This document shows positions 1 to 11,472 of a stretch of 45,092 nucleotides of DNA, piece after piece (within the stretch, counting starts at the first letter, position 1; each line of letters opens with the position of its first letter). Below the pieces are notes generated by a model. It did no database searches, was not told where the DNA came from, and was given only the letters and a program-made list of their open reading frames with translations. The DNA is taken from assembly GCA_003650305.1 (NCBI GenBank), contig QMOV01000008.1, forward strand, positions 1-45,092. The letters are read 5' to 3'. The position numbers and the translations under genes were made by a program. Origin of the DNA: Bacteroidota bacterium (GTDB taxonomy: Bacteria; Bacteroidota; Bacteroidia; Flavobacteriales; Flavobacteriaceae).

Positions 1-1124
1 GTAAAATAGTATCCTAAATTTAGTTTTTGAGATTGAAGATTGATTATAGCGTTTTCATTCCCTTCAAAAATGAAGTTATAAATTTCAGGCGAAAAACCGG
101 CTCCAATTACAATGCTTAAATAATTATCGGCATCACTTCTATATTTTCTATAATTAAGTGTTCCAGATTTACTTGAACCAGGTTCGCCAGGAGTAATATA
201 AGTACGAAATGATAAATAACTATTTCCTGTATACCAGCCTAAAGATCCTGTATAAATATTGGTTGTAGTGCTATATTTTAATGCTCTAAACCCTAGCGAA
301 ATTTCAAAACTTTTTGGTAAAGACTTATACAACTCAGCGCCATACCTAATATCTGGATATAGAAACGTATTTGCCACACCAAAATTTAGATATGCATATA
401 ATCCTTTTACTATTCTTGGATACATATCAACCTCGAACTGAACACCATTAGATTGAAATCTTCTACTAAAATTAATTTTACTATGTATGCTTCCAAATTT
501 TGTTTGCCTCACATATTTTAGCAAATAAAATTGCATAGGATCAAAAACATCAGAATAAACATCTACTGAAGATTTGAACGCAATATTATTATGACTAAGT
601 TCATTTAACAAACTTGATTTATAGGCCTCTGTTTTTTCGTGATTTGGATTGTCTTTTAATGAATTTTTAAGAGTTAGTAAAGCTTCCTCTTGATTACTTG
701 TATTATCTTCAGCACTTGCCTTTAAGTACAAAATTTCTGGATTTTTAGGAAAATACTTCAAAGCCTTATTAGCCATTTCTAAAGCGCTAAAAGGAGCTTC
801 GCTCCACAATTCGTTTTTAATTGCTGCTTCCCAAGTATCCAATCGATTAGGATTACTTTTTAAGATATATGCAAATTCTTTTTTTGCTTTTTTATAGTCT
901 CCATCCCATGAATAGGTGCTTCCTAAAAATGAGCGAATATCATGATAATTAGGATATTTCGTTAAAATTAACAACAAAGTGTCTTGAGCTTGTTTACGTT
1001 GTTTATTAAATGCTAGTTCTCTAGCGACTTCAAACGCTCTATCTGGATCACCTTTAAAAACTTTTTGTTGTCCGAAAGAACAAAAGCTTATAAAAAAAAT
1101 TAGTATATATAAATTATTACGCAT
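1..1124 (-). CDS. YaiO-like TPR / outer-membrane beta-barrel protein (C-terminus outside window)
   Basis: Reading leftward from ATG at 1124, the frame stays open to the window edge (374 codons, no stop). Residues 1-18 form a signal peptide ending FCSFG before QQKV. About residues 25-150 are TPR-like (NKQRKQA, WDGDYKKAKKEF). The remainder alternates aromatic and polar residues in short strands, as in YaiO-type outer-membrane barrels. Proteins of this kind are predicted to sit in the outer membrane with periplasmic TPRs and are often linked to polysaccharide export. It is the last visible gene of the five-gene operon, 18 bases after the upstream stop. Its TPR block closely resembles the C-terminal TPR of the preceding gene. 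The fold assignment is by pattern recognition and the substrate is unknown. Confidence 0.8.
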   Translation of the reverse strand, partial: MRNNLYILIFFISFCSFGQQKVFKGDPDRAFEVARELAFNKQRKQAQDTLLLILTKYPNYHDIRSFLGSTYSWDGDYKKAKKEFAYILKSNPNRLDTWEAAIKNELWSEAPFSALEMANKALKYFPKNPEILYLKASAEDNTSNQEEALLTLKNSLKDNPNHEKTEAYKSSLLNELSHNNIAFKSSVDVYSDVFDPMQFYLLKYVRQTKFGSIHSKINFSRRFQSNGVQFEVDMYPRIVKGLYAYLNFGVANTFLYPDIRYGAELYKSLPKSFEISLGFRALKYSTTTNIYTGSLGWYTGNSYLSFRTYITPGEPGSSKSGTLNYRKYRSDADNYLSIVIGAGFSPEIYNFIFEGNENAIINLQSQKLNLGYYF

Positions 1125-1142
1125 AACTGTTTTGAATTGTCC

Positions 1143-3569
1143 TTATTCTAAGGATTTTTTAAATGTTAAATATTCAGGATTATTGGGGTAAACTTGTATA
1201 ATGCTATCCATTAATGTAATTGTTTGGTCTAAACTTTCCATTCGTTTATAAGCCTTTGCCAATTTAAAACTAAGCTCAGGGTTTGTAAGTCCATTTTTTA
1301 ATGCTTTGGAGACCAATGCTATGGCTTTATTATCTTGATCTGACCACCAATACAAATCTAATAATGCCAAATAAGCATCGTTATAATAAGGAGACCTTTT
1401 AATGACATTTAAAAGCTCAGCTTCAGCATTAATATAATCGCCATCCCAAGCTAAAGTCCGTCCCTTTAAAGTTCGAGCATCAGAATGATTAGGGAGTTCA
1501 TTTAAAATATAATCACAAAGCAATCTCGCTATTTTACGTTCTTTATTAAACGCCTTTTCTCTTGCTTTTATAAATGTTTGATCAAAGTTTAATTCCTTTG
1601 TTAACTCAGTAATTGTAGCTAGTTGTTCTTCTGAAAATTCAATACTAGGCTTTATATAAATATTAAGAGAATCGGGGAAAATTTTATTACGTTGGGTAAC
1701 ATAGGCATTCATTTTTTTAAATGCTGCTAAAGAATCCTTCATTGTTTTAATAAGCTCTTCTTCTATTACCTCATATGTTCCAAAATCTTCATTTATTTTG
1801 AATAAGTTACCATCAGATAACAAATAATCTTTATAAATAAAATCATTGATATTTCCTTTATAACGCATTAAAGGGATGCGATGAATATTCCTAAAATTTC
1901 TTGCTGTATCTAGACCTTGACTCATCCATGCAATCTCGTCTAAACCTTTAAACTTATAATTGTTCATTAAAAAGGAAAGTAAACTAGGAGTGACACCCCA
2001 ATGTGATGAAATAGATTTAAATTTTTCTGTTCTCTTCAGCATTGGACTATAAATATATAGTGGTACATGAAATCGGCATAACTTATCTTTTTGAGATATC
2101 GGAATAAGCCTATGATCGCCTGTAATTATAAATATTGTGTTATTATAGTCATCTCTCTCGGCAAATGCAGTCATAAAATCTTTGATAGAATTATCGGTAT
2201 AATATAAACTCGCATAAATCTCTTTATTAGCTGCGATTTCTTCCTTACTAATATCAAATCGTTGACCAGACTCTGAAATGCTATCCACCTTTGCTAAATA
2301 TTGTTCTTTTAAAGGGAAACTAAACGGTTCATGATTGGTAAGAGTTACTATAATATCTAATCTTGGTTCTGTTTTATTGTCTAATGACGCCAATGTTTTT
2401 CTAAATATTTCTGAATCTGGATAACCCCAAGAAAAACCGCCCGAATTATTTTCTGTTCTACTATATTCTGACCCATATTTGTTTTCGTCAATAACATGAT
2501 CAATCCCACTATATTCTAAAAAGTTAATTATTCTATCAAAACTTGAGTGTCCACCGGAATAATATGAAGTTGTATAACCGTTTGTTTTTAATACATTAAT
2601 TAGGTTAATGTGAGAAGGTGTTTTTTGCAATTCTAAAAACCCTGTTTCGCCAAAAGGCAGTGAGCCTAATAAAGATGGTAAGACCCCAAATGTTCTTCCG
2701 GTAGTACTTACAAAATTTTCCCAATAGAGCGATTTTGAAATTAAAGAATCCAAAAATGGAGTAAAACCTCTATAGGTTTTTTCTCCTATAAACTCGCTTC
2801 CCAAACCTTCCACAATAATTATTACAATATTTGGTTTTTCTTCTTTTACGTTAAAAAATGAAGTCAATACATCATTTGAATCATTAAAAGGCTTTAATAA
2901 AGGGTAATCATTTCTATCAAATAAGTTATAGGCTTTTGTTTTCCTTTTCTCATTTTGAAATTTAATTATATCTTTTGTTAAAAACGCAATTTTGTTTTGA
3001 TAGGCTGTATCATAAGCTTCAGAGAATATTAATTTTAAGCTGCCAAATATTAAAATAAAAAGAATACTTATACCAATTGTTATACGTTCATTAAAATATT
3101 TATTTATTAAAATGAAAATGAAAAAAAGCAACAATGGGAAAACGATAAACGGCAATAACGACATTAAAGTCATTGCTTCTGAAGAACTTACCGTTATATA
3201 AATGTCATTTAAAGAATAGCCTAAAATATCGGCACCTAAGTTTAATAATGTTGTTAAACTGTATTTTACCAATGAAACTTGAATAATTAAAAAAAATGCA
3301 AATAATACTTTTATTGTTGTTAATGCTCCTTTTTTTACACCTATATAAATCAAAAGGAATACTGGAAACAATAGACCTCCAATTATTAAACCACTCCAAA
3401 AATCGTTGAGAAATTTAAATAAAATTGCTAACCCTAAATTTGGTATTACTATTCCAGCTAACTTTGATGCGATTAACTCAAATAAACTAATAACCCAAAA
3501 AGCGCATATTAGCGCAAGTGTTAAATAAATATATTTATAAAAATCTTTTGTTTGTAGGTTAAGTTTCAT
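1143..3569 (-). CDS. LTA synthase/sulfatase-family membrane protein with C-terminal TPR repeats
   Basis: 808 residues. About five membrane helices (residues 12-190) precede an extracytoplasmic alkaline-phosphatase-superfamily domain. The metal site is suggested by PNIVIIIVEGLG (about 247-258), the catalytic Thr by STTGRTFG (about 289-296), and the distal metal ligands by ITGDH (about 482-486). Family members transfer phosphoglycerol or phosphoethanolamine groups, or hydrolyse phosphate or sulfate esters. Residues about 685-800 add TPR repeats (WDGDYINAEAEL, WWSDQDNKAIAL), which LtaS enzymes normally lack. It starts 12 bases after the glycosyltransferase stop and probably decorates or processes that enzyme's product. 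The transferred group cannot be read from the sequence. Confidence 0.85.
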   Translation of the reverse strand: MKLNLQTKDFYKYIYLTLALICAFWVISLFELIASKLAGIVIPNLGLAILFKFLNDFWSGLIIGGLLFPVFLLIYIGVKKGALTTIKVLFAFFLIIQVSLVKYSLTTLLNLGADILGYSLNDIYITVSSSEAMTLMSLLPFIVFPLLLFFIFILINKYFNERITIGISILFILIFGSLKLIFSEAYDTAYQNKIAFLTKDIIKFQNEKRKTKAYNLFDRNDYPLLKPFNDSNDVLTSFFNVKEEKPNIVIIIVEGLGSEFIGEKTYRGFTPFLDSLISKSLYWENFVSTTGRTFGVLPSLLGSLPFGETGFLELQKTPSHINLINVLKTNGYTTSYYSGGHSSFDRIINFLEYSGIDHVIDENKYGSEYSRTENNSGGFSWGYPDSEIFRKTLASLDNKTEPRLDIIVTLTNHEPFSFPLKEQYLAKVDSISESGQRFDISKEEIAANKEIYASLYYTDNSIKDFMTAFAERDDYNNTIFIITGDHRLIPISQKDKLCRFHVPLYIYSPMLKRTEKFKSISSHWGVTPSLLSFLMNNYKFKGLDEIAWMSQGLDTARNFRNIHRIPLMRYKGNINDFIYKDYLLSDGNLFKINEDFGTYEVIEEELIKTMKDSLAAFKKMNAYVTQRNKIFPDSLNIYIKPSIEFSEEQLATITELTKELNFDQTFIKAREKAFNKERKIARLLCDYILNELPNHSDARTLKGRTLAWDGDYINAEAELLNVIKRSPYYNDAYLALLDLYWWSDQDNKAIALVSKALKNGLTNPELSFKLAKAYKRMESLDQTITLMDSIIQVYPNNPEYLTFKKSLE

Positions 3570-3581
3570 ATCTATTTTTTT

Positions 3582-5018
3582 TTAAGCCGTATTAGAAGTA
3601 AATCCTTTCCGTTTCATCTCTCCCCATTTCTTGTTTTTGTTGAAATAGTAATCAATATTCCCTCTAACAGCTGCATATAAAATAAAAGGGTGTAAAACAA
3701 ATGGCTCTAATGCACTTAATAGAACTAATTTATAACCTGTGCCTTTCTTTTTATATTGATGAAATGTTAGTTCTTCGGAGTATAATGAAACAATAGAAAA
3801 TAAAACTGAAAACAAATAAGCTAAAACAAGGAATGATAATGCATATTCCCATCTTACCTCTTTTAAAATAACTAAAACTGCAAAATAAAGGATACCTACT
3901 GTCTCTACAATAGGAGCTAAACGCTCGAATATTAACCAATAAGGATAACTTAACAATCCGAAAGACCCATATTTTGGATTAAATGCAATTTTACGATGTT
4001 TTCTTAATGTTTCTATGGTGCCTCTAGTCCACCTATTTCGCTGTGAAATAAAAATTTTATAATTATCTGGTGCTTCGGTCCAACATAGTGGATCTGGAAT
4101 ATAGGATACTTTATATTTTCTGCCTTGTTCTTCCATATACCTTCTCATGCGCACTATAATTTCCATATCTTCTCCAACCGTATTGGTATCGTAACCTCCA
4201 ACATCTATAGCTATTTTTTTATCGAATACGCCAAATGCACCAGAAATTACTAATAGCCCATTTAACCTACTCCATGCCATTCTACCAAGTAAAAAAGCTC
4301 TTAAATATTCTAAAATTTGTGATCTTACAAGTAAATTCTTAGGTAAATTAACGTCTATCAACTTTCCGCCTCTAATAACACAAGAATTCGCAATACGAAT
4401 AACTCCTCCTGTTGCAATTACTTTCGCATCTGTTACTTCAAGAAATGGTTTTATCATTTTTTGGAGCGCATTTTCTATTAATAAACAATCTACATCAATA
4501 CAAGCAACATATTTACTTGTGCTAATATTTAAGCCCATATTTAGTGCATCTGCCTTTCCTCCATTCTCCTTATCTACAACCATAAGTTTTTCAAAAGCAG
4601 GATTCTTTGATTTGAATACTCCTGAACGTAAAGGTTTTGTTTTAAGTTTTTCGTTAATTATGTAGTCAACTTTTTCTAAATCATAGGCTTCTATTAACTT
4701 TTCTAAACTGTCATCCTTACTGCCATCATTCACTATTATTACACTATAATTTACGTAATGATTAGATAATAATGATCTTACATTTTCTACAACATTAAGG
4801 CTTTCGTTATACGCAGGAGCAATTATAGTTATAGAAGGAGACATAGTTGATGAGAGTATATCTTTATAATTAACAAAACTGTTCCTTTTAAGATATTCCA
4901 TCGTTTCTTTTCCAGAAATTATAGCCAATATAATATAAGACAGTATTGCAGAAAAAGCGTATGCGAAAAATAAATAATGGATTATTTGTATAATTATTTT
5001 AACTGTACTTGTATCCAT
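3582..5018 (-). CDS. Family 2 processive glycosyltransferase (PgaC/NodC/BcsA-like)
   Basis: 478 residues. One N-terminal membrane helix (about 10-33) is followed by a GT-A domain with SITIIAPAYNES, a VNDGS motif, the IDVDCLL DxD motif, GEDMEI (catalytic-base region) and QRNRWTRG (the QxxRW signature of processive synthases). Three or four helices follow at the C-terminus. Such enzymes polymerise beta-linked sugars (poly-GlcNAc, chitin oligomers, hyaluronan, cellulose) and thread them through the inner membrane. There is no PilZ domain. The start overlaps the upstream stop by one base (TAATG), which implies translational coupling to the HEAT-repeat protein. Its sugar specificity is not evident; poly-N-acetylhexosamine is the closest analogy. 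Confidence 0.88.
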   Translation of the reverse strand: MDTSTVKIIIQIIHYLFFAYAFSAILSYIILAIISGKETMEYLKRNSFVNYKDILSSTMSPSITIIAPAYNESLNVVENVRSLLSNHYVNYSVIIVNDGSKDDSLEKLIEAYDLEKVDYIINEKLKTKPLRSGVFKSKNPAFEKLMVVDKENGGKADALNMGLNISTSKYVACIDVDCLLIENALQKMIKPFLEVTDAKVIATGGVIRIANSCVIRGGKLIDVNLPKNLLVRSQILEYLRAFLLGRMAWSRLNGLLVISGAFGVFDKKIAIDVGGYDTNTVGEDMEIIVRMRRYMEEQGRKYKVSYIPDPLCWTEAPDNYKIFISQRNRWTRGTIETLRKHRKIAFNPKYGSFGLLSYPYWLIFERLAPIVETVGILYFAVLVILKEVRWEYALSFLVLAYLFSVLFSIVSLYSEELTFHQYKKKGTGYKLVLLSALEPFVLHPFILYAAVRGNIDYYFNKNKKWGEMKRKGFTSNTA

Positions 5019-6124
5019 TATGATATGTTATTTACGAATTTAAACATTACTGGTGCTTTTTTGTTTGAAGACAATTTGTTCAAGCCCATAAATTTATCTA
5101 GGTTAATTGTTTTTAATATTTTAAGGGCTAATAATTGTATTTCAAAGTTTTTATGAAAAATGTGTTTTTCAATAAAAGGCTCATCGGATGGCACAACTAA
5201 CTTTTCTAACAATCCAAAGAAGCTAATTTGCTCTTCTATACTTAATTCATTAAAGTTTGCTTTTAACATTTCTTTAGCTTCGATTCCATATAGGTGGGTT
5301 AACACCTCAATAACACAAATTCTAATTTCCTTCTTATCATGAGAAAGTAATTCAATAAGTATGTCTTTCATTTCAAACTGATTATATATTTGGGCTAGTT
5401 TTAAGGCAAATAAGACTACACTATCGTTTTTAGATTTTAACCAAGGTTTGATATCACAAATTTGCTGATCGTCAAATTTTTGTAAAACTTCTAGCAACTG
5501 TAATTGAGTCCATTCTGATAAAGGTGTCTTTAATTCGTTTAAAAATGTAAGCCCATCAAATCGAAATAAGTTTACTAAATATAATTGTGTCTCATTTCTT
5601 ACTTCTTTTTTTGAATGTTCAATAAAATTAATAATGTCGCCATAAGATTCTTCAATTTTGAAGCGTCTAAGTTCACCTATACCTTTGGCTATTACATACC
5701 AGTTTTTATTTTCCAATTTTGTCAAAGCATAATCTATAAGGCCTGTTTCATAGTAAAGCGTTTTAATAGATTCTGCCATTTCTCCTGAGACTTCATTCAA
5801 TAAATTATACAAAACAGAAAGGACCATTTTCCTTTTATACTTAATTGGTATATGGGATTTTATTTTAGAAATTATAGCTTTCTGTTTAGTGTGAGCTTCT
5901 TCACTTTCTTCATCTGCATACAAGTATTCAACTAACAATGCTTCGTATTGATTTTTGAATACTTTATACTCATTCTCTTTTTTTCTTAAATGATACCTTA
6001 TTACTTTTAAATAAATTGTGAGTAGAAATATTGCCACAAGGAATAGACCGCTTATTCTCCAAGCCAGTTGAATCAAGAAAGGAAATTCTTCGAAATAATC
6101 AATTAAGTATTGATAATCAATCAT
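5018..6124 (-). CDS. Membrane-anchored HEAT-repeat-like protein
   Basis: 368 residues. One membrane helix at about 17-42 (AWRISGLFLVAIFLLTIYL) is followed by a charged stretch and then helical repeats about 35 residues long (LENKNWYVIAKGIGELRRF, KNDSVVLFALKLA, KKEIRICVIEVLTHLYG), typical of HEAT repeats. No catalytic motif is visible. It lies between a CheY-like regulator and the glycosyltransferase, with whose start codon it shares one base. An adaptor or assembly role at the synthase is likely; receiving the regulator's signal is an inference from position only. Confidence 0.65.
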   Translation of the reverse strand: MIDYQYLIDYFEEFPFLIQLAWRISGLFLVAIFLLTIYLKVIRYHLRKKENEYKVFKNQYEALLVEYLYADEESEEAHTKQKAIISKIKSHIPIKYKRKMVLSVLYNLLNEVSGEMAESIKTLYYETGLIDYALTKLENKNWYVIAKGIGELRRFKIEESYGDIINFIEHSKKEVRNETQLYLVNLFRFDGLTFLNELKTPLSEWTQLQLLEVLQKFDDQQICDIKPWLKSKNDSVVLFALKLAQIYNQFEMKDILIELLSHDKKEIRICVIEVLTHLYGIEAKEMLKANFNELSIEEQISFFGLLEKLVVPSDEPFIEKHIFHKNFEIQLLALKILKTINLDKFMGLNKLSSNKKAPVMFKFVNNIS

Positions 6125-6143
6125 ATTTGTAAAATCTATAATT

Positions 6144-6509
6144 TTAACTTAATAACCTGTTAACTCTTATAACTAACTCGTTTGGACTAAATGGTTTCCC
6201 CATAAAATCATTAGCGCCTAATTTAAAAGCTTTAAGTACCATTTCTTCTTGGCCAGCAGCAGAAAAAACAATAATTGGAATTTCTAAAGCTAACTTGTTT
6301 CTTATATGGCTAATCACCTCAAGCCCACTCACAAATGGCATCATTATGTCAGTAATAACCAAATCAGGCTTATTATTTTCAATAAGCTCAATTGCTTCTT
6401 TGCCATCAACTGCCATTAATAGTTCGTGACCTTCCTTTTCTAATCTAAATTTCAATAATAAAGAAAGTGTTGAGTTGTCTTCGGCAATAACAATTTTATG
6501 TTTACCCAT
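6144..6509 (-). CDS. Single-domain CheY-like response regulator
   Basis: 121 residues, a receiver domain only. The acidic pocket is E10/D11, the phospho-acceptor is D54 (LVITDIMMP), the switch residue is Ser in IIVFSAAG, and the conserved lysine lies in MGKPFSP. No DNA-binding or enzymatic output domain is present, so it must act by protein contact. It is the first gene of the minus-strand operon, 19 bases before the HEAT-repeat gene, which makes that protein or the glycosyltransferase the likely target. No histidine kinase lies next to it. Domain assignment is firm; target is inferred. Confidence 0.88.
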   Translation of the reverse strand: MGKHKIVIAEDNSTLSLLLKFRLEKEGHELLMAVDGKEAIELIENNKPDLVITDIMMPFVSGLEVISHIRNKLALEIPIIVFSAAGQEEMVLKAFKLGANDFMGKPFSPNELVIRVNRLLS

Positions 6510-6717: not shown

Positions 6718-9700
6718 TTATTTTATAATAACTCTTTTACTTATTAGGCCTTTTGTGGTATTAAATTTTACAATATAAACTCCTGAGCTTACATTTACAG
6801 GAATAGAAATTTCTCTTGAATTAAAATATAAAGATTTTATTCTTTGTCCTATATAATTATATAATGTGGCATTTAAAACTTCAATGTCAACTAATGTAGT
6901 AACCTTTATTTCTGATACACTCGGATCGTAATAAACAATAAATCCATCTTCTAAATCAACTTCATTTGTGAATAACGAATTTGGTTGATTAGCTTGAAAT
7001 ACAAGTTTAAACCTATCTTTATATTCGCCTGGCTCTAAATTAATTTCAAACGGATTGTTATTAATTTGGAATGTTTCACCTGTAGTCTCATCTAAAATAT
7101 ATAAGTCTACACTGGCATCTATATTCTCAATTGCGTCAACACTTATATTTATTAACCCTGCTTCTTTGACAATTAAACCTAGTGAGAACTCTTGGGTTGT
7201 ACTAAAATTATTAACTCCTTGAATTACAAATTTGTTGTCATCAAAAGTCCAATACATATCTTCTTCATTAATATCGGCTATAAATGCATCATAGCCTAAA
7301 TCAAATCCATTTGAAGCCACTTCATTAATACCAACTACAATTTGTCTATGATAGCCTGTTGGAGAATCGAACATCAATCTTATTATTGGATTATCATTAA
7401 TAATTTCATCTTCATTAGCAGTAGTATTATTTTCAGAAGATCTCATAAAAACAGAAGTTGCAGATGCTTCTGTTGCAAAAACGCGTTGGCTATTTTTAAA
7501 AACAATATCTCCTCCATCAACTACAGAAATCGCGACTCCATTATTATTATTAAACCCTTCAAGACTTGTAGTTACAAAAAAACCTTGATTAACTGGGATG
7601 TATTGTCCTGGAATTTTTAATCCTACTTCTCCTGTTGCATTTATTCTAATATCATTAGAAATAGCTACTGCACCTCCAGTTAAATTTCGAGTTGCATATC
7701 CTCCTATAAAATCACTTGTGCTATGAGAGTTTACTTCTCCAAAATGATCCCAAAAATATAAAGCACCATTAAAAATTGTTCCGTTCACATTATTTCCGCC
7801 ATCTGCAATACTCATATTATCTAAAATAAATTCCGTTGCATCAATAGCCGAAGGATATGGATTCCCAATTAGTCTATCAACTTCTCCTGAAGATTTATCC
7901 AAAGTTAAAGTTATATCTCCATTATTAGGGAGTCCTTTAAAAATATAGTTTTGAAAATCAGTTAATATATTGGCAGCTCCAGAAGTTCCTTTCATTGTAT
8001 AACCTTCTCCTGTGAGCAATGAGGAATTCTCATTTATTGATATCCAAGCATTAAAATCATCAGAAGCACCATAAAATTTATACATCCAATATGTACTGAT
8101 GCTTATTGGTATAGGTGGTGTATTTGAATCGGCTGCTGAAAAAGATGGATTAAAAGTTATAGCTTGAGATGAAGATGAAATTGTTCCATCATTTAGAACT
8201 CCAGATATTGAATAATTAGAATTAGTACTACTAATACCAATTCCTTTTGTCTCTGTATTACCACTTATTGGACCAACTGAAGATGACCAATAATTAAAAT
8301 TAAAACTGTTTGCTGTGCCTTGTTGGTCTCTTTCTAAATAGCCACCACTGTCTGCATCAATAATACTTCCCTCAAGTTGTATTAATTGAGACTCACCTAC
8401 CAAATCTATTATACCATCCAGTTCTAAATATTTACTTATGGTTAAACTCTGTCCTGTTCCTGTTCCTGTATTTATATTAGTAGTGCCATCCATTGTTAAT
8501 TTCCCAGCAGTAGAAATTAAACCCCTTAAAGTAATATTTCTACTTCCTGAAGTAACATCATTAGTTAATTCAATGATGTTCCAATCAACAGAAGTAGCTC
8601 CATCAATTCCAATTGTATTCGGAATATAAACGTCAGTACTGTTTAGCCATGTTGTACTGGCATCCCAACTACCATTACTATCCGTTTCATAGGGTATTGG
8701 TGCCGTTACCGACTGTGATGTATTAATATTAACTGGTACTCCTTGAATACCATAACTAGAACTATCAAATGCAGTATTTGAGTTCAGAGGATAATAACCC
8801 CGTAAATTGCTCCACAATAATCCTCCAGAAATATTTAACGGAACTGTTAGTCCTTTAACAGCACTTACATTTTGTACTATTTGCTGATTCATCATTACCC
8901 TTATCTGAGCTTCGGTTAGTGCTACATCCCAAATACGGACTTCCTGAATAGCGCCATTGAAAAAATTTATATCAGATGGTGTTGTTGCGTAATTTGTAGT
9001 TTCAGCTCCAATTTTAAAACCTTGAGTTGTATTTAAAGGTGCTGCTGAAGGTGTTCCAGAAATCAATTCTATGCCATCCATATACAATCTAGCAGTTGTA
9101 CCATCATAAGTAGCTGAAATATGATGCCATTTATTATTTGGAATTGCAAAAGGTGATGTAATATTTAAAACTTCGTTGTTGGAATTATCATACCAGATTA
9201 AATTTGGATAGTTATTTTTTAATGCTAAATGATATCCTGTTTTTACAGTAGCATCAATATTTCCTTTAGAAAGTATTGTTCCAATTGGTACTGTTGCTTC
9301 CTGTAAAACCCATGCTTGTAAAGAAAATGAGCTTGTTAAATCATGATTATCCTCAAAATCAATTAATTGATCCGCTCCATCAAAATCAATTAAATGATCA
9401 ATAACATTAATTGAGTAATCTTCAACTTCGCCATCAAACCCAGAATCACAACTTGATGGGTAAAACTGCCATTTTGTTGCTACACGCATACCTGTTAAAC
9501 CAATAACTGCTGAATTCGGAATTGTAATTGCTAAAGGAGAATTAGATGTAGGTGAGTCTACAACATTAGTTGCAGAGCCCATATCATATTCTTCGCCTAC
9601 ATCAAGAAAATCACCATCTCTATTCCAATCTATCCAAACATTGGTAAAAACTGTAAAATTGCCATCTGTATTAACATTTACTGTTAAATTATGTGTAGAA

Positions 9701-11472
9701 TTTTTGTAAACATTAGTTGACATGGCTGTAAAATCTTCATAAGCATTATCTTTAGGTATTTCATTATCTGCATTACTCATCGTGTTAAAAGAAACAAAAG
9801 TAACACTGGTGTTGTAGGTAGTACTTCCATTAGAACTACAGTATTCGCCTTTTCCTCCTATATTAAAGGTATAAGGATCTTCGTCAGAATCATTGTTTGA
9901 GATAGATACAGTTGCTAAATGAGTTAAAGATGTTGTTGGATTATATTCTATAGTAAATGTTGTACTCCCTCCTGCTATTATTGGTGTTGTTGGGTTTGCT
10001 GTTAAAGTAAAATCGGCAGTATCTCCAGTGATTACAACATATGGACTAATACCATTTAAGGTTACATCAGTACTTCCTATATTTTGAATCGTAAAAGTAT
10101 GTGAAACGGATACTGCTCCAGTGGTTTCTAAATTTCCAAAATCGGTAAAGTCAGTTAATGAAATAACCGCATTTCCACTTGGAATAGTTATACCATTCCC
10201 TTGTATATTTATTTCAGGTCCAGAAAATATTGTTACTAACCCACTTAAATCTATTATTTGTATTTCATGTGATAATGTATTGTTATTTCTGTGAGCCCAA
10301 TGAGCTGCTTGTGTTGTAGAGTTTAAATAGTAATTACGCCACCCTCTACCATATTGTTTTCCATTACCACTTGACGTTGAACTGCCAACAATAAGAGCTT
10401 GATTTACATCTGAAAGTCCTGCGGCTGTAATATTAATATTTGTTTGTCCAGAATTTCTTGAGCTGTCTTGAAACCGAGTTACATTTAATCCTGTGTTAAC
10501 CAATACGTGAACAAAATGCCTGTTGGTTCCGTCTGAATCATGATTATTATGAAACGTCCAATCTACTGTTTGATCATTTAACCCAGGATCCACAACTGGC
10601 CATAGATCGGAAATAGCATCATTACTGCCACTATTTGCTATATCGCCCCTAAAATGACTAAAAATTGCTGCATCACTCCATGAGGTAACATTTGTAGTAG
10701 TACCAGTCCCATCTGATGCATTTCTTAGTGTAATTGTTCCTGTATCTCCATTTGAATTTCCCGAATCTCCATGCAAAACTGTCCAGTTAGCTCCTGTAAA
10801 TTCTACAACTGTAATATATACTGTCACGTTATTATGATAGGAACCTTTTTCTACCCTAAGGGTAGTTGCATTTTCTAAATACGCTATTGCAGTACTCGAA
10901 TCAGCATCATCATTTGTAGAGTTATTTAGAATTCCTGTTATAAAAGGAACACATTTATTTGCATTTGTAATCCCTAATAATGCCTGTGTTGTACTATTAG
11001 TTGCTCCATTTAAACTTACTGCATACCTCCCTCTAACAATAAGCTCATTGCCTCCACCTGGCGGACCTATATATTCCCAAAGCGACGTGTTAAATCTCAT
11101 ATTTATATTTCGTGAAGCTGATTCTCTATAATAAGTTAAAGTGCTATTATCTGTGAGTTGTCTGGCTCCAGACATATCATCTCCATCTTGGATCCCACCA
11201 TTTGTACTAGAACCTGCATGTGTTTTACGATTGCTATTAGCTAAAGCAATAGCACTATTTAACGAACCCACTGGAGTGAAGCTTGTATTTGATCCTCCAG
11301 TTCGTGCTATATTATCTTGAATATGTTGGACCTTGAAATCTGCTGTTTGAGCATTAACAACATAAGCAAATAAGACACAAAAGAGCAATGTGACTTTTTT
11401 CAATATTTGTTGATTATAACAATTGACTGTTGCAATAATAGTGAGTAGGTTTTGATTATTGGCGCTTTTCAT
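6718..11472 (-). CDS. Very large multidomain T9SS-secreted protein (anchor-D, GEVED, LamG-like)
   Basis: 1584 residues. A signal peptide lies inside residues 1-41 (KKVTLLFCVLFAYVVNA before QTADF), preceded by an unusually long n-region. A unique beta-rich region follows, then an ASPM/SPD-2/Hydin-like 'choice-of-anchor D' domain (about 418-540), a GEVED domain (about 544-690, with WIDWNRDGDF and DGEVEDYSINV) and a LamG/concanavalin-like domain (about 695-855, with SFSLQAWV and GAIQEVRIWD). After a long beta-rich stretch, the last 75 or so residues are a type A T9SS sorting domain (LYNYIGQRIKSL, SSGVYIVKF, KRVIIK). It is probably exported through the outer membrane and anchored or released as an adhesin-like surface protein. 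It has its own promoter and is a single-gene unit. The ligand is unknown. Confidence 0.85.
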   Translation of the reverse strand: MKSANNQNLLTIIATVNCYNQQILKKVTLLFCVLFAYVVNAQTADFKVQHIQDNIARTGGSNTSFTPVGSLNSAIALANSNRKTHAGSSTNGGIQDGDDMSGARQLTDNSTLTYYRESASRNINMRFNTSLWEYIGPPGGGNELIVRGRYAVSLNGATNSTTQALLGITNANKCVPFITGILNNSTNDDADSSTAIAYLENATTLRVEKGSYHNNVTVYITVVEFTGANWTVLHGDSGNSNGDTGTITLRNASDGTGTTTNVTSWSDAAIFSHFRGDIANSGSNDAISDLWPVVDPGLNDQTVDWTFHNNHDSDGTNRHFVHVLVNTGLNVTRFQDSSRNSGQTNINITAAGLSDVNQALIVGSSTSSGNGKQYGRGWRNYYLNSTTQAAHWAHRNNNTLSHEIQIIDLSGLVTIFSGPEINIQGNGITIPSGNAVISLTDFTDFGNLETTGAVSVSHTFTIQNIGSTDVTLNGISPYVVITGDTADFTLTANPTTPIIAGGSTTFTIEYNPTTSLTHLATVSISNNDSDEDPYTFNIGGKGEYCSSNGSTTYNTSVTFVSFNTMSNADNEIPKDNAYEDFTAMSTNVYKNSTHNLTVNVNTDGNFTVFTNVWIDWNRDGDFLDVGEEYDMGSATNVVDSPTSNSPLAITIPNSAVIGLTGMRVATKWQFYPSSCDSGFDGEVEDYSINVIDHLIDFDGADQLIDFEDNHDLTSSFSLQAWVLQEATVPIGTILSKGNIDATVKTGYHLALKNNYPNLIWYDNSNNEVLNITSPFAIPNNKWHHISATYDGTTARLYMDGIELISGTPSAAPLNTTQGFKIGAETTNYATTPSDINFFNGAIQEVRIWDVALTEAQIRVMMNQQIVQNVSAVKGLTVPLNISGGLLWSNLRGYYPLNSNTAFDSSSYGIQGVPVNINTSQSVTAPIPYETDSNGSWDASTTWLNSTDVYIPNTIGIDGATSVDWNIIELTNDVTSGSRNITLRGLISTAGKLTMDGTTNINTGTGTGQSLTISKYLELDGIIDLVGESQLIQLEGSIIDADSGGYLERDQQGTANSFNFNYWSSSVGPISGNTETKGIGISSTNSNYSISGVLNDGTISSSSQAITFNPSFSAADSNTPPIPISISTYWMYKFYGASDDFNAWISINENSSLLTGEGYTMKGTSGAANILTDFQNYIFKGLPNNGDITLTLDKSSGEVDRLIGNPYPSAIDATEFILDNMSIADGGNNVNGTIFNGALYFWDHFGEVNSHSTSDFIGGYATRNLTGGAVAISNDIRINATGEVGLKIPGQYIPVNQGFFVTTSLEGFNNNNGVAISVVDGGDIVFKNSQRVFATEASATSVFMRSSENNTTANEDEIINDNPIIRLMFDSPTGYHRQIVVGINEVASNGFDLGYDAFIADINEEDMYWTFDDNKFVIQGVNNFSTTQEFSLGLIVKEAGLINISVDAIENIDASVDLYILDETTGETFQINNNPFEINLEPGEYKDRFKLVFQANQPNSLFTNEVDLEDGFIVYYDPSVSEIKVTTLVDIEVLNATLYNYIGQRIKSLYFNSREISIPVNVSSGVYIVKFNTTKGLISKRVIIK

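Follow-up and report, generated by a model that had tools for sequence, protein, structure and literature searches.

A conserved receiver–HEAT–GT2–transferase–YaiO locus in Flavobacteriaceae predicted to encode a phosphorelay-gated exopolysaccharide machine

The window analysed here, 45,092 nt of contig QMOV01000008.1 (positions 1–45,092; assembly GCA_003650305.1, Bacteroidota bacterium, Flavobacteriaceae), begins with five nearly contiguous ORFs on the minus strand, with 19, 12 and 18 bases between genes at three junctions and a TAATG overlap at the fourth. They encode a CheY-like stand-alone receiver (6144–6509; 121 aa; PF00072, 6e-28), a membrane-anchored HEAT protein (5018–6124; 368 aa; HEAT_2, 3e-5), a processive-type GT2 synthase (3582–5018; 478 aa; GT2 Pfam families, 1e-19), an LtaS/OpgB-type transferase (1143–3569; 808 aa; PF00884 (Sulfatase), 1e-30, followed by C-terminal TPRs) and a TPR plus YaiO β-barrel outer-membrane protein (1–1124; PF19413, 6e-62; TIGR04390, 5e-52). 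This layout and the family assigned to each of the five proteins in the initial annotation are borne out by the reading frames and by Pfam/NCBIfam profile matches, with two amendments: the C-terminal TPRs of the LTA-synthase-like enzyme had been overlooked, and the YaiO-like gene is truncated. It runs into window base 1, which is the end of the contig, so that its 3' end is lost and its product has 374 aa, as against 416–425 aa in most family relatives. The 208-bp gap upstream of the receiver gene was searched for the flavobacterial promoter motif (TTG...TAnnTTTG), which was not found there.

The synthase has one N-terminal and about three C-terminal TM helices and carries the motifs D98, D175xD177, ED283-284 and Q326xxRW, the catalytic motifs being present in 81 of 81 aligned sequences. 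On these motifs (DxD, ED and QxxRW) it is predicted to be the processive membrane GT2 of a synthase-dependent exopolysaccharide (EPS) system, and the YaiO protein, which exceeds the cut-offs for PF19413 (209 bits) and TIGR04390 (177 bits) and also matches TPR_19, has the TPR and outer-membrane barrel of the corresponding exporter, with export likewise predicted. The best NCBIfam relative of the synthase is PgaC/IcaA (TIGR03937), and PgaC is also its nearest relative among the E. coli proteins compared by BLASTP (27.6%, E 6e-25). These affinities, the TPR-barrel exporter and the position of one haloarchaeal relative beside GlmS and a sugar-phosphate nucleotidyltransferase are what one might expect of a canonical PNAG (Pga) system minus PgaB and PgaD; nevertheless, we regard that explanation as very improbable and have rejected it, given that the profile scores fall far below the cut-offs (PgaC, 133.4 against 422.3 bits; PgaA, 17.5 against 366.65 bits), that the HEAT protein and the receiver are foreign to Pga, and that PgaB and PgaD had no match to any system profile and neither gene is in the five-gene set. 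The set contains no deacetylase either, in keeping with the earlier description of a Pga-like layout that lacks PgaB.

The transferase is composed of about six TM helices, an alkaline-phosphatase-superfamily domain (residues 236–560) and C-terminal TPRs (about 660–808) that resemble those of YaiO. VP1736 and LtaS are the PDB relatives of its catalytic domain, residues E254, D485, H486 and H413 are invariant where aligned, and the nucleophile position 293 is occupied by T (59 sequences) or S (17). Judged by fold, Thr/Ser nucleophile and metal ligands, the protein belongs to the LtaS/OpgB-like phosphotransferase superfamily, and as a PF00884 enzyme with an intact metal site it would provide the periplasmic modifying enzyme of synthase-dependent EPS secretion; its score against the LtaS lipoteichoic acid synthase equivalog NF053595 is 47 bits, with a cut-off of 970. 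It is present in 63 of 100 HEAT-anchored loci and forms one protein with the GT2 in 14 GT2-anchored loci, and L102 has a GT2-LTA-TPR fusion; these natural fusions tie the transferase to the synthase. In a model of one fused relative, the GT2-homologous half adopts the hyaluronan-synthase fold (Z 27.3 over 386 residues) and the other half the LtaS/VP1736 fold (Z 32–36), the pTM of 0.53 making the relative placement of the two halves unreliable.

Since the catalytic domain is nearest to LtaS, LtaP and VP1736, and an enzyme with the LtaS fold could conceivably polymerise, the product might be a glycolipid or teichoic-acid-like molecule, in which the LtaS-like enzyme builds poly(glycerol-phosphate), the main polymer, on a lipid-linked sugar anchor supplied by the GT2. 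We consider this improbable, because the GT2 has QxxRW and the hyaluronan-synthase features of processive synthases and because GT2, HEAT and YaiO are kept where the transferase domain is absent (L042, L104, L122, L135 and L155), so that what stays constant is the GT2 together with export. In two of these loci (L104 and L135) the transferase has lost its sulfatase domain and kept its TPRs, pointing to a putative structural role for the latter. Some loci have no transferase or no YaiO, a point against the machine proposed below.

The neighbourhood as a whole is conserved far above chance and is not random. The five-gene unit proposed in the initial annotation would have been refuted had the five families seldom been found together, and this was clearly not the case: within Bacteroidota their association is very strong, and all five occur together in 61 of 70 loci (counting GT2-anchored loci with full flanks only). 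Among 100 HEAT-anchored loci, GT2 is the gene after HEAT in 99 (0/1055 for unrelated genes), and in 83 the gene immediately upstream of HEAT is an orphan receiver (7/1205 for unrelated genes). Gene order may change while the set is kept: the receiver follows YaiO in L162, L168 and L171, and YaiO stands between receiver and HEAT in L161, L177 and L183. Considering the linkage, the fusions, the folds and the intact catalytic and phospho-acceptor residues together, sequences and models thus favour the envelope polysaccharide operon that had been put forward for this locus.

The receiver has the phospho-acceptor D54, the acidic D11, the switch residue S83 and K105, all of which are present in 79 of 79 aligned receivers. 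The Bacteroidota receivers of these loci form a separate receiver subfamily, to which the receivers displaced by altered gene order still belong. In relatives, an HPt gene overlaps the receiver gene, or HK-REC-HPt or REC-HPt lies upstream of the receiver, and an HPt is found no more than three genes away in 64 of 100 HEAT-anchored loci; in many relatives an HPt or HPt-ending hybrid kinase directly upstream of the receiver would complete a phosphorelay. No HPt is encoded at the locus in the window. A PF01627 search of the window genome returned nothing at threshold, and a relative's HPt used as query found a candidate HPt in trans with an HKMKP motif (L090); a candidate hybrid HK-REC (L082) is likewise encoded elsewhere in the genome, and these two may serve other receivers instead. 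A phosphorylatable receiver, an HPt and a kinase, the parts of a phosphorelay, would thus all be available, in the window genome with HPt and kinase in trans only, and control through a phosphorylated receiver, as originally suggested, gains credibility from the receiver-coupled HPt and hybrid-kinase genes of the relatives.

The HEAT protein has one TM helix (about residues 24–42) followed by a cytosolic-looking α-solenoid. Its HEAT_2 match (3e-5) is slightly below the Pfam cut-off, and the solenoid is confirmed by a confident model (pLDDT 92) that matches HEAT/ARM folds in the PDB; R98, G114, L192, F194, L195, W205, W228, N233 and V236 are near-invariant. Extended HEAT proteins of up to 1027 aa were considered as possible enzyme fusions, and in the two scanned Pfam found only more HEAT repeats and linker. 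Receiver–HEAT coevolution was assessed by APC-corrected mutual information against within-clade shuffles, with the HPt–receiver pair as control: the top-scoring pair rose above the within-clade null, and the control gave no clear interface. An apparent clustering of coevolving positions on the receiver's active face was reproduced by the within-clade shuffles and was discarded.

This mixed coevolution outcome would also suit a different arrangement of the same polysaccharide machine, one in which HEAT is an assembly or stability subunit only and the receiver acts elsewhere, either through a different partner or as a sink for phosphate, the operon serving for co-expression. HEAT-GT2 pairs with no nearby receiver occur in Legionella, Deinococcus, Planococcus and several Bacteroidota, as well as in second, diverged clusters, and so HEAT must have a receiver-independent role. 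Against a purely structural HEAT stand the adjacency of receiver and HEAT in the 83 loci and in haloarchaea, which have no outer-membrane parts, and the retention of the receiver in the cluster despite the changes in gene order; we judge this arrangement unlikely, if less so than the two alternatives above.

The well-studied Gram-negative synthase-dependent polysaccharide machines are gated by c-di-GMP. In the Pfam scan none of the five proteins showed a PilZ or GGDEF domain, and GGDEF was detected in 5 of 299 family genomes and not in the window genome, which makes c-di-GMP control unlikely and agrees with the initial description of an operon without a c-di-GMP element. Staphylococcal PNAG is independent of c-di-GMP, such regulation being usual, not universal (PMC7112194). 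Like the present locus, the Pga, Bcs, Alg and Pel operons bring together an inner-membrane GT2, a periplasmic modifying enzyme and a TPR plus outer-membrane barrel; here, however, HEAT and a phosphorelay receiver replace the c-di-GMP-binding subunit, the transferase is of the LtaS/OpgB type, and both it and the barrel protein bear TPRs. E. coli Bcs type II also couples its synthase to an alkaline-phosphatase-superfamily head-group transferase, in that the pEtN transferase BcsG is recruited through physical contact with BcsA (PMC11470070), whereas here the coupling can be a covalent fusion and BcsB, PilZ and BcsE are missing; BcsG itself was not recovered by BLASTP as a relative. With LtaS, OpgB and VP1736 the enzyme shares a TM domain and an extracytoplasmic alkaline-phosphatase fold with retained metal ligands, but it differs in its C-terminal TPR extension in Flavobacteriaceae, its fusion to GT2 in several lineages and its polysaccharide-operon setting. 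E. coli yaiO-yaiP-yaiS and nfrA-nfrB similarly place a GT2 beside YaiO or a TPR outer-membrane protein, yet have no HEAT or receiver, and NfrB is annotated as c-di-GMP-activated. The twisted stalk cluster (PMC8250860) is a different system, BcsB/EpsE-like, and our searches of an open-access literature collection for the five-gene system and for its parts found no published description of the system.

We suggest, as the probable reading, that the locus encodes a synthase-dependent exopolysaccharide machine gated from receiver to HEAT, the polymer being phospho-decorated during export. The GT2 would polymerise sugar from nucleotide-sugar donors and thread the chain through its own membrane channel, while the adjoining LtaS/OpgB-type protein would decorate the chain, as it emerges, with a head group taken from a phospholipid, either glycerol-phosphate or phosphoethanolamine; we infer the polymeric nature of the product, its identity and its export, and the phospho-group, if any is added, is presumed. 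The TPR modules of transferase and YaiO may then direct the polymer towards the YaiO barrel, through which it would be exported; in Pga, the polymer is scaffolded by the PgaA TPR domain (PMC9384988). Activity would be set post-translationally by a relay from a sensor or hybrid kinase through HPt to the orphan receiver, which, once phosphorylated, may act on the membrane-anchored HEAT subunit; this would gate the GT2 in a manner comparable to the c-di-GMP-dependent action of PgaD or PilZ domains in other systems, the receiver-to-HEAT contact and the sign of its effect being our supposition. Considering that Flavobacteriaceae are almost devoid of GGDEF enzymes, how synthase-dependent machines are switched there is the question addressed; the operon offers a concrete, testable answer, namely a phosphorelay that terminates at the synthase's HEAT subunit. 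A surface polymer with phospho-decoration is a further prediction, and the natural GT2-transferase fusions provide material for structural work.

Outside Bacteroidota, where the spread is based on 14 plasmid records only, HEAT-GT2 occurs in other phyla and in haloarchaea, frequently downstream of a receiver. More tentatively, the receiver–HEAT–GT2 core may be a general phosphorelay switch, in Bacteria and haloarchaea, for processive glycan synthases without c-di-GMP, to which diderms add outer-membrane export and LtaS-type decoration; its presence in haloarchaea suggests an old, general design. Among Alphaproteobacteria, receiver–HEAT–GT2 is accompanied by neighbouring HPt or kinase genes in Mesorhizobium, Devosia and Erythrobacter; the same three genes are found in three haloarchaea.

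We confirm the five genes described in the initial annotation; they lie on the minus strand, spaced 19, 12 and 18 bases apart except for a single TAATG overlap, and by Pfam and NCBIfam assignment they encode a receiver (6509–6144), a HEAT-repeat protein (6124–5018), a GT2 glycosyltransferase (5018–3582), a PF00884 transferase with C-terminal TPRs (3569–1143) and a TPR–YaiO protein (1124–1), the TPRs of the last two being similar. The YaiO gene is incomplete, since contig C8 (genome 2.84 Mb) ends at base 1 of the window. The operon is not a Pga system; by its structure it qualifies as a synthase-dependent exopolysaccharide system, though with a different regulatory subunit, and it very probably makes and exports a polysaccharide. 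A search of open-access papers, which took in only a minority of subscription papers and no bioRxiv preprints, found no description of it. Directly upstream on the same strand, a 1584-aa protein (6718–11472) combines GEVED, LamG and Ig-like domains with a weak match to a secretion tail; relatives stand at the equivalent place in L003, L004, L007 and some Lutibacter loci, and it may partner the polymer at the surface.

The co-occurrence check proposed in the initial annotation came out in favour of a conserved set: among 80 GT2-anchored loci taken from other assemblies, 61 of the 70 with full flanks carry all five genes, more than expected by chance, and in two loci beyond the 61 (L067 and L072) the receiver is present though overlooked by gene picking. 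Within 100 HEAT-anchored loci across Bacteroidota, a sample independent of the GT2 anchor, GT2 is the next gene after HEAT in 99; 83 have an orphan receiver directly upstream (91 have one at most four genes away), 64 have a histidine phosphotransfer protein (HPt) at most three genes upstream, and a transferase domain and YaiO are close by in 63 and 85, respectively. As background, among unrelated genes of the same loci 7/1205 had an orphan receiver upstream and 0/1055 had GT2 downstream.

Both enzymes retain their motifs: D98, DxD, ED and QxxRW in all 81 aligned GT2 sequences, and E254, D485, H486 and H413 wherever aligned in the transferase, whose expected nucleophile position is occupied by Thr or Ser. 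GT2–transferase fusions occur in 14 GT2-anchored loci, L102 joining GT2, transferase and TPRs in one protein. A natural Sphingobacterium fusion models as hyaluronan-synthase-like in its first half (Z 27.3 over 386 residues) and LtaS/LtaP/VP1736-like in its second (Z 32–36), the relative placement of the halves being unreliable (pTM 0.53). Because transferase homologues in L104 (2649–3866) and L135 (10085–11212) kept their C-terminal TPRs after losing the catalytic domain, it is probable that these TPRs serve a separate, structural function.

Receiver residues D11, D54, S83 and K105 are kept in 79/79 aligned sequences. By sequence, the system's receivers form a separate subfamily, with a median of 179 bits against the subfamily profile versus 62 for other receivers of the same loci; receivers displaced within the cluster and excluded from the profile score 120–171 bits versus at most 109 for OmpR-type, and alphaproteobacterial and haloarchaeal receivers are not clearly separated by this score. 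In several genera the genes for HPt and receiver overlap; Lutibacter and others have HPt as the C-terminal part of a hybrid kinase, and in some cases it comes after a receiver domain. Taken together, these parts make up a complete kinase–HPt–receiver chain aimed at an operon that has no DNA-binding output domain. At the operon in the window's genome HPt is absent (lost or never there). Contig C4 of that genome encodes a 113-aa stand-alone HPt-like protein with an HKMKP motif (L090:1405–1746), adjoining a cinA-like gene and missed by the Pfam Hpt model, which is a candidate general HPt, and contig C7 encodes a hybrid HK-REC; that these two serve the operon's receiver is a guess. GGDEF domains were absent from the window's genome and found in 5 of 299 Flavobacteriaceae genomes (three over the cut-off) while the HEAT protein occurs in 78, which argues against c-di-GMP as the usual switch here.

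A high-confidence model of the HEAT protein shows a single TM helix and a solenoid, and matches generic HEAT/ARM folds only. We suggest that GT2 and HEAT would constitute the synthase, that the transferase would decorate the chain as it emerges, and that the TPRs and YaiO barrel would take it out, with HEAT reading the receiver's phosphorylation state. The BcsA–BcsG complex offers a structural precedent for a head-group transferase bound to a synthase (PMC11470070), and the PgaA TPR domain one for a periplasmic scaffold (PMC9384988). Gene linkage and topology incline us slightly towards the receiver acting through HEAT; phospho-decoration of the polymer we rate a little above an even prospect. 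When receiver–HEAT coevolution was examined, the top-scoring pair rose above the within-clade null, but clustering on the active face of the receiver did not, and no clear interface emerged for the HPt–receiver control. HEAT is extended to 625–1027 aa in many Flavobacteriaceae (L092–L095, L121–L156), by a long acidic linker and further HEAT repeats in L093, the one taken in full. A second, diverged HEAT–GT2–YaiO cluster with neither receiver nor transferase adjoins the first in L025 (14837–18743) and L028 (14167–17950); in L028 a DUF4838 protein follows it, and a DUF4838 protein is likewise a neighbour in L105 and on a Bacteroides finegoldii plasmid (L200).

A tblastn search of GT2 against plasmids gave 14 records, and in every distinct one examined GT2 is directly preceded by a HEAT gene, known as such from its annotation or identified by us (Emticicia, B. 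finegoldii, Mesorhizobium, Erythrobacter, Deinococcus, Haloarcula, Paenibacillus, Legionella, Planococcus, Halosolutus, Salinirubellus and Devosia). Distant HEAT proteins match the Bacteroidota profile weakly (7e-12 to 3e-6 for Alphaproteobacteria, Legionella and Haloarcula); those of Deinococcus and Planococcus were not detected by it and were assigned by annotation and position. In Mesorhizobium and Devosia the genes for receiver, HEAT, GT2, HPt and a TPR or YaiO protein are clustered together, and three haloarchaea have receiver, HEAT and GT2 with no outer-membrane parts. Halosolutus has a small additional ORF between receiver and HEAT, and the adjoining sugar-phosphate nucleotidyltransferase and GlmS genes that follow the cluster hint at an amino-sugar polymer. 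The Planococcus pair (L207) has CotH, DUF4956 and polyphosphate-polymerase-like genes as neighbours, with an anti-phage Qat gene in the vicinity. Emticicia plasmid pEMTOL05 (L199) carries a HEAT–GT2–YaiO–LTA set, and the receiver close by seems to lack the phospho-acceptor Asp.
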